Source of the DNA: Thalassobacillus devorans | GTDB lineage: Bacteria; Bacillota; Bacilli; Bacillales; Halobacillaceae | DNA: 64,000 nt | NCBI RefSeq assembly: GCF_900176565.1 | Contig: NZ_FXEH01000005.1 | Location: 955,384-1,019,383 of the forward strand | Direction of reading: 5' to 3' | Shown here: positions 26,037 through 26,648 of the stretch, one piece after another | Layout of the letters: each line of letters begins with the position of its first letter | Numbering within the stretch: the stretch's first letter is position 1 | Notes under the pieces: generated by a model | What the model was told of the DNA's origin: nothing | The model's input: the letters and a program-made list of their open reading frames with translations, nothing else | Databases searched by the model: none | Position numbers and translations under genes: made by a program

Positions 26037-26648
26037 ATGGACTTCTCTGTGAACGACCTTGATCCGTGTGATCTTCCATTTTGTGCCCATACGAATGACA
26101 CCGCCCCTTCTTTCCAGGCGGAAGCTTATGATAATGTCTCTAAAAAAATTACATCAGTAGATTTAGCAAGCTACCGTGGCAAGTGGGTCGTACTCTTTTT
26201 CTATGCCAGTGATTTTACTTTTGTCTGACCGACCGAACTGGCAGCGGTCGCTGCCATTTATCCTCACCTGAAACACTTAAATACGGAAGTGCTGGCTATC
26301 AGTACCGATAGTGTCTATGCGCATAAAATTTTCACCGAAACCTCGCCATCGGCTTCCAGGGTAACCTTCCCACTTGTCAGTGATCGGACACAGGAAATCA
26401 GTAAAGCGTACCGGGCCTTCAATCCAAAAACCGGTGCGGCGCTCCGTACCACTACCATCATCGATCCCAATGGTATCATTTCAGCAAAGCTCACCAACCC
26501 GCCTGAGGTAGGAAGAAATGTGCCAGAAATTCTACGTCTGATCCAGGGCATACAGTATGGCAGAAAAACAGGTGAAGGCGTGCCCGCGAATTGGATGCCA
26601 GGACAGCCGGGAATTAAGCGAGACCCTAATATGATTGGTAAAATATGA
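26037..26648 (+). CDS. AhpC/Prx-type peroxiredoxin with selenocysteine (TGA) at the peroxidatic position
   Basis: 203 codons interrupted only by TGA at 26226-26228 (codon 64). The TGA stands exactly where peroxiredoxins have the peroxidatic cysteine: [10 protein letters not shown][TGA]-PTELAA. Downstream the frame continues with normal AhpC content ([35 protein letters not shown], ending IGKI). A stem-loop with a GGTC apical loop starts 11 bases after the TGA, like the E. coli fdhF SECIS. The usual resolving cysteine (GEVCPA) is GEGVPANW, and the only cysteines are C11 and C16 at the N-terminus. ATG 26037 follows AAAGAGGTG. Alternative: a nonsense mutation, but the intact 3' frame and SECIS argue against it. 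Confidence 0.8.
26226..26256 (+). promoter_or_regulatory. Bacterial SECIS-like element and UGA Sec codon
   Basis: TGA (26226-26228), then stem TGGCAGC (26239-26245), loop GGTC (26246-26249), stem GCTGCCA (26250-26256). The loop GG is 18-19 bases after the TGA; in E. coli fdhF a GGUC loop lies at nearly the same distance. This is the SelB-binding signature that recodes UGA as selenocysteine. Confidence 0.75.

Follow-up and report, generated by a model that had tools for sequence, protein, structure and literature searches.

A probable selenocysteine-containing peroxiredoxin of the AhpC type in Thalassobacillus and related Bacilli

The gene at 26037-26648 of the window (the whole stretch of 64,000 nucleotides of DNA that was analyzed) almost certainly encodes an AhpC-type peroxiredoxin with selenocysteine (Sec) as its peroxidatic residue, which would be inserted through SelB-dependent decoding of an in-frame UGA codon. 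As far as sequence can tell, this reading is carried by the reading frame, the conserved TGA, a covarying hairpin, a complete set of Sec machinery genes and the missing resolving cysteine (Table 1). A probable selenoprotein had been proposed in the first-pass annotation, and the proposal is supported by the Sec machinery, by the conservation of the TGA together with the hairpin loop, and by the occurrence of a Cys homologue in a genome without SelB over the cut-off.

Table 1. Coordinates of the gene and of its proposed functional elements within the window.
Feature	Position	Strand	Remarks
Proposed selenocysteine peroxiredoxin CDS	26037..26648	+	203 residues plus stop; ATG start, GAGGTGA upstream; final TGA 26646-26648 taken as stop
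Proposed selenocysteine codon: in-frame TGA (codon 64) at the site of the peroxidatic cysteine	26226..26228	+	
SECIS-like hairpin TGGCAGC-GGTC-GCTGCCA	26239..26256	+	Folding, covariation, constrained synonymous sites
Invariant GU of the four-base apical loop	26247..26248	+	Columns 22-23, invariant in 64 rows
Cys11 codon, N-terminal cysteine common to part of the relatives	26067..26069	+	
Cys16 codon in the PFCA motif	26082..26084	+	Candidate new resolving cysteine (inferred)
Val182 codon	26580..26582	+	Site of the resolving Cys (V-C-P) in 2-Cys AhpC

Results

The AhpC-type frame is interrupted only by the TGA at codon 64 (DFTFV-U-PTE). As the first-pass annotation had described, it is otherwise open from the ATG to the final TGA, and the AhpC content claimed for the part after the break is borne out by the downstream codons, which are conserved as protein. 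An alignment of homologues indicated conservation on both sides of the TGA. The read-through protein matched AhpC-TSA (Pfam, E 7.9e-36), Redoxin and 1-cysPrx_C, and its score with AhpC-TSA (PF00578) was 123.2 bits against a curated cut-off of 26. In both sequence and fold comparisons, the peroxidatic Cys of AhpC and the 2-Cys peroxiredoxins aligned with the TGA, placing a UGA where homologues have Cys, as expected of a selenoprotein gene. T61, position 64 and R137 were invariant in the 26 rows of alignment A2, and residues T61-F-V-U64 form a T-x-x-U motif. The top PDB matches of the predicted fold (model pLDDT 86.4; 41-57 for residues 1-20) were 2-Cys peroxiredoxins and AhpC.

The best NCBIfam models for the read-through protein were the equivalogs PrxU (NF040737; 174.1 bits, cut-off 270) and AhpC (TIGR03137; 153.7 bits, cut-off 272). 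Since both scores fall below the curated cut-offs, the protein was assigned to neither family. With the PrxU model, L031 (187.9 bits), L027 (178.8) and L032 (149.4) also remained below 270, and L090 (343.1) and L092 (278.6) exceeded it. The genome contains 12 AhpC-TSA matches, among which a TGA was present only in this gene, and a second Sec peroxiredoxin was therefore dismissed. A search of 25880-26760 gave no sigma-70-like promoter. Control by PerR was also considered and rejected: the window contained 13 loose matches against 7.1 expected (13 were reached in 2 of 100 shuffles), and the nearest, with three mismatches at 25720-25734, lies about 300 bases upstream.

To determine how widely the TGA is conserved, we used two genome draws, 397 genomes from the order and 398 from the class, with homologues collected by similarity to this protein. 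In the order draw, where the gene was called at E 1e-45 or better, it was present in 53 of 397 genomes, 52 with one internal TGA and one without. The class draw gave 15 of 398, each with one TGA, and four of these were also in the order draw. The two draws together give 64 distinct genomes, and alignment shows codon 64 of the gene as TGA in 63 and as TGT in the remaining one (L150 of genome G212). Among the best 80 homologues of genome_contigs, codon 64 was TGA in 20, TGT in 30 and TGC in 30; the closest 16 all had TGA. The comparison of homologues suggested in the first-pass annotation thus showed that the relatives carry TGA at codon 64 and have kept the loop.

The TGA form was accompanied by SelB over the cut-off in 62 of 63 genomes. 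In the order draw, SelB was found in 51 of 52 TGA genomes versus 179 of 397 overall (Fisher p 8e-19, a test that ignores shared ancestry and uses counts read by eye from lists). The class draw contributed 11 more TGA genomes, all with SelB; in two, the match covered just the first 353 and 415 of 581 positions. The single TGA genome without SelB over the cut-off (G232) is an assembly of 480 contigs with a tRNA-Sec of 58.9 bits. The only Cys homologue of the close clade in the two draws, the TGT copy, comes from a genome in which neither SelB nor tRNA-Sec was found over the cut-offs.

Within the genus, the gene was present in G001 and G002 and absent from G003 and G004. The latter two genomes have kept SelB and tRNA-Sec, and no TGA was found in their AhpC-TSA or FdhA matches. 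The T. cyri and T. devorans copies are 83 and 84% identical to this gene, with matching surroundings. The T. devorans copy (L018:4001-4591) retains the TGA and the hairpin and lacks six codons just before FTFV-U, so that one close copy may be impaired.

We further examined the genome for the genes of Sec decoding. The first-pass annotation had advised a search for selA, selB, selC (tRNA-Sec) and selD and had held that their absence would contradict a selenoprotein; all four are present, inside one 16-kb stretch of a different contig (C4). SelB (659 aa) scored 340 bits (cut-off 242), SelA 540 (268) and SelD 406 (125), and the tRNA-Sec, with anticodon tca, scored 61.9 bits (gathering 47). ARAGORN found no tRNA genes within the window. 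The selD gene (L016:9741-10797, minus strand) is itself interrupted in frame by a TGA within the active-site motif LSTKAGUGCKIGP; the mechanical ORF for SelD begins too late because of this codon, and the genome would thus have at least two candidate selenoproteins. Folding alone gave no clear structure for a selD hairpin (z -0.19). A hairpin model (R1), tuned to this peroxiredoxin family such that other SECIS elements would escape it, detected in the genome (G000) this gene only, at E up to 10 among 150 of 1964 candidates scored. Formate dehydrogenase was rejected as a Sec user, as the FdhA-like matches of G000-G004 are all without an internal TGA. The earlier remark that selenoproteins are rare in Bacillaceae was not borne out for the machinery, given that SelB was over the cut-off in 179 of the 397 order genomes; 128 of the 397 have SelB without this peroxiredoxin gene.

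The hairpin lies where the first-pass annotation had placed it, beginning 11 bases after the TGA with the two G's of its loop 18-19 bases after it. In this one sequence alone it is not exceptional: its single-sequence fold has -12.6 kcal/mol (z -1.79), and 10 of 200 shuffles reach a fold at least as stable. We therefore turned to alignment A3, which contains 64 TGA rows (25 of alignment A1 and 39 more; 62 distinct; 19 later rows left out) and is gapless, with a constant distance from the TGA. Across these 64 genes, standard pairs occupied 96.0% of pair cells (89.9 in shuffled alignments), 27 cells were changed on both sides (5.8 shuffled), and the covariation score was 0.314 (0.179 shuffled); none of 500 shuffles reached any of these values. 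Four pairs showed a double change, a number reached by 70 of 500 shuffles. When the 3' arm was slid by 1-2 columns, pairing dropped to 24-29%. A slide of three columns left 89.6% and 67.5% paired, because alanine codons repeat, with covariation scores of 0.102 and 0.173. By this comparison across homologues, the hairpin is lifted above chance.

Columns 17, 19, 20, 22, 23, 25, 26 and 28 of A3 were invariant. Pair 18-27 was A-U, G-U, G-C or U-A and pair 21-24 was G-C (48/62) or A-U (14/62), and both link third positions of separate codons. Loop bases 1 and 4 vary together, as G..C in 48 of 62 rows and A..U in 14, with no mixed row, and the loop in 63 TGA genomes reads GGTC in 53 and AGTT in 10. 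The conserved GG loop anticipated by the first-pass annotation is thus confirmed as a conserved loop, but its invariant letters are G26247-T26248 rather than GG. Four-fold third positions in 17 Bacilli genes had a mean entropy of 0.70 bits at six codons within 66-73 versus 1.74 at 17 others. Among the 62 rows, the outermost pairing is lost at 14-31 in 10, at 15-30 in 6 and at 16-29 in 4, and L188 and L031, folded singly, gave other structures. A terminator scan also flagged the hairpin as terminator-like, one of three such sites in the region against 0.8 expected; the run of T's that follows is short and varies among the rows. In the TGT copy (L150), the stem is gone (-6.8 kcal/mol, z +0.45), and ATG has replaced the valine codon that separates the alanines. 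The hairpin is taken as a SECIS just downstream of the UGA, to which SelB is predicted to bind.

The cysteine content was then compared. The C-terminal resolving Cys was absent in all 64 rows in which the motif was found, out of 65 (64 TGA rows and L150), and the C-terminal V-C-P Cys of a typical 2-Cys peroxiredoxin is missing from the present protein. Among the five Cys-type rows of A2, L033, L034, L036 and L086 have the resolving Cys and L041 does not. Of 57 Bacilli rows, L150 among them and with start codons picked by script, 52 carry a Cys 6-13 residues ahead of AP.F, and four are devoid of Cys outside position 64. This distribution is consistent with a 1-Sec enzyme, for which the N-terminal Cys may act as partner in most Bacilli; in a few, direct reduction by another thiol would take its place.

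Phylogenetic trees were constructed from three sets of sequences. In a 135-row tree (51 TGA and 84 Cys rows), the Bacillota Sec rows grouped with L093 and L150 (96/96), the PrxU-like L080, L090 and L092 fell on another branch, and L150 stood beside L144 (97/68). In a quick 54-row tree, the Sec Bacilli as one clade without L150 were not rejected and were even likelier (p 0.787). In a careful 51-row tree, which leaves out L103 and L026 (long branches) and far relatives including L093, L080, L090 and L092, L150 was nested with L021 and L144 (81/86), and the one-clade test gave p 0.159. L150 falls among Sec Bacilli in the 135-row and the 51-row trees. In this copy (L150:1684-1734 and around), T61 is replaced by Ser, D91 by Glu and H96 by Gln; D91 and H96 were kept in 83 of 83 TGA rows. 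These changes indicate that L150 may be drifting.

Discussion

An AhpC-type frame with an internal TGA might be taken for a broken peroxiredoxin pseudogene, caused by a nonsense mutation or a sequencing error. The standard code does stop at the TGA, and the ORF list gives only a 119-aa downstream ORF. We consider this hardly conceivable, as the identical TGA occurs at codon 64 in 63 of the 64 distinct genomes with the gene, the hairpin covaries with its synonymous sites constrained, and the protein is conserved on either side of the codon. The Sec machinery in the genome and the same signal in related species suggest that the gene is intact. A slim chance, small but the largest among the alternatives, is left to a different outcome at the UGA, namely insertion of Trp or Cys through a tRNA that is near-cognate or mischarged, or a programmed stop giving a 63-residue peptide. 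The Sec machinery of mammals can insert Cys at UGA when selenium is low, which lends the former some plausibility. However, the same gene ends in UGA, a tRNA-Sec with the matching anticodon and SelB are present, and the TGA form goes with SelB genomes; a programmed stop is at odds with the protein-like conservation of the codons that follow.

The hairpin, in turn, might be kept only for the peptide AAVAA, or be a transcription terminator or attenuator instead of a SECIS. Three of its eight pairs, located at first and second codon positions, are invariant, and the terminator scan flagged it. The third-position pairs 18-27 and 21-24 nevertheless change together, synonymous entropy is low there, the GU of the loop is invariant in 64 rows when the T-run is not, and the Cys homologue without SelB has lost the stem. 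We regard these non-SECIS explanations as very improbable, and Sec at codon 64 as the preferred reading.

Given Sec at this codon, a mechanism can be proposed. At UGA64, SelB-GTP with Sec-tRNA(Sec) would bind the GU loop of the hairpin about 10 bases downstream and deliver Sec before termination. The selenolate, activated by Thr61 and Arg137, would reduce H2O2 or organic peroxides and be converted to selenenic acid. With no resolving cysteine at its usual C-terminal place, the oxidised Sec could be reduced by one of two candidate routes: through the N-terminal Cys16, possibly aided by Cys11, or by the direct action of an outside thiol, for example thioredoxin. Cellular Sec insertion, the peroxidase activity and the reducing partner are put forward here from established knowledge of SelB and peroxiredoxins.

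The cysteine copy L150 likely represents a return from Sec to Cys. Its retained alanine pattern, the missing resolving Cys and the missing SelB fit such a return, although it was not accepted as a proven event, as the one-clade tests leave room for L150 outside the Sec Bacilli. More tentatively, and with somewhat less than even confidence, we suggest a distinct, almost obligately selenium-dependent peroxiredoxin branch in Bacilli that gave up the C-terminal resolving Cys, in which the N-terminal Cys would resolve instead, and in which one lineage lost Sec decoding, changed to Cys and let its SECIS decay. Table 1 of PMC1794560, as far as that table goes, covers 12 Sec peroxiredoxins and lists a Sec-to-Cys event for none.

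PrxU of Eubacterium (Peptoclostridium) acidaminophilum was reportedly described by Sohling in 2001. Sec peroxiredoxins (TxxU, PrxU) have been a known family since that year, and the novelty of the selenoprotein reading is modest. The protein resembles PrxU in having Sec at the peroxidatic position, and the over-cut-off PrxU members L090 and L092 also are without the C-terminal resolving Cys. It differs in its score (174 bits versus 270), in the separate branch that the Bacillota group forms from L080, L090 and L092, and in the N-terminal Cys of most Bacilli members. With AhpC and typical 2-Cys peroxiredoxins (TIGR03137; PDB 4ma9, 4k1f) it shares the fold and active-site residues, whereas Sec replaces the peroxidatic Cys and the resolving Cys is absent. 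The SECIS of E. coli fdhF is a hairpin about 10 bases after the UGA, with a GGUC apical loop and a bulged U in its stem. The present hairpin has the same spacing and loop, but its stem is without the bulged U, and some relatives have AGUU.

In the literature, E. acidaminophilum PrxU (NF040737) is cited in sections of PMC9312934, PMC13188914 and PMC8533274. The selenoprotein family "Peroxiredoxin (Prx), TxxU", with which our protein shares the AhpC-TSA domain and the T-x-x-U motif, appears in sections of PMC1794560, PMC5029168, PMC9312934 and PMC13188914, where a Bacilli example is not named. The relevant part of PMC5029168 counts Sec peroxiredoxins in 78 organisms (91 proteins). In PMC1794560, a 2006 survey whose corresponding sections stress Clostridia and Deltaproteobacteria, Table 2 gives Bacillales three selenoproteins of three families, unnamed there. 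PrxU of Sulfobacillus thermotolerans, termed selenocysteine-containing and upregulated under oxidative and arsenic ore stress in a portion of PMC7409299, is similar by description, and evidence for Sec is not given in that portion. A search by title and abstract start, with most subscription literature outside its scope, found no paper on a Sec peroxiredoxin of Bacilli, and within the same scope nothing in print was found on the Bacilli branch, on the covariation of its SECIS or on its association with SelB.

Software that treats TGA as a stop would split such genes or label them broken. The family ties Sec decoding to peroxide defence across Bacilli, beside Clostridia and Deltaproteobacteria. 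Within a single enzyme it allows Sec and Cys to be compared in nature, with one lineage that appears to have switched back, and it raises the question of how a peroxiredoxin is recycled without the usual resolving cysteine.

Several minor observations were also made. The frame of L190 (G587) diverges from that of the family at the 3' end, pointing to a frameshift or an assembly error. Elsewhere in the window, a formate dehydrogenase alpha-like gene whose match has no internal TGA lies at 51777-53786 (+), and three consecutive peptidase-like genes, labeled by eye, lie at 32464-36690 (+). Distant peroxiredoxin matches with one internal TGA were observed at G052:C19:13979-14341, G054:C21:681373-681780 and G039:C12:147394-147771, and these are perhaps further Sec peroxiredoxins.
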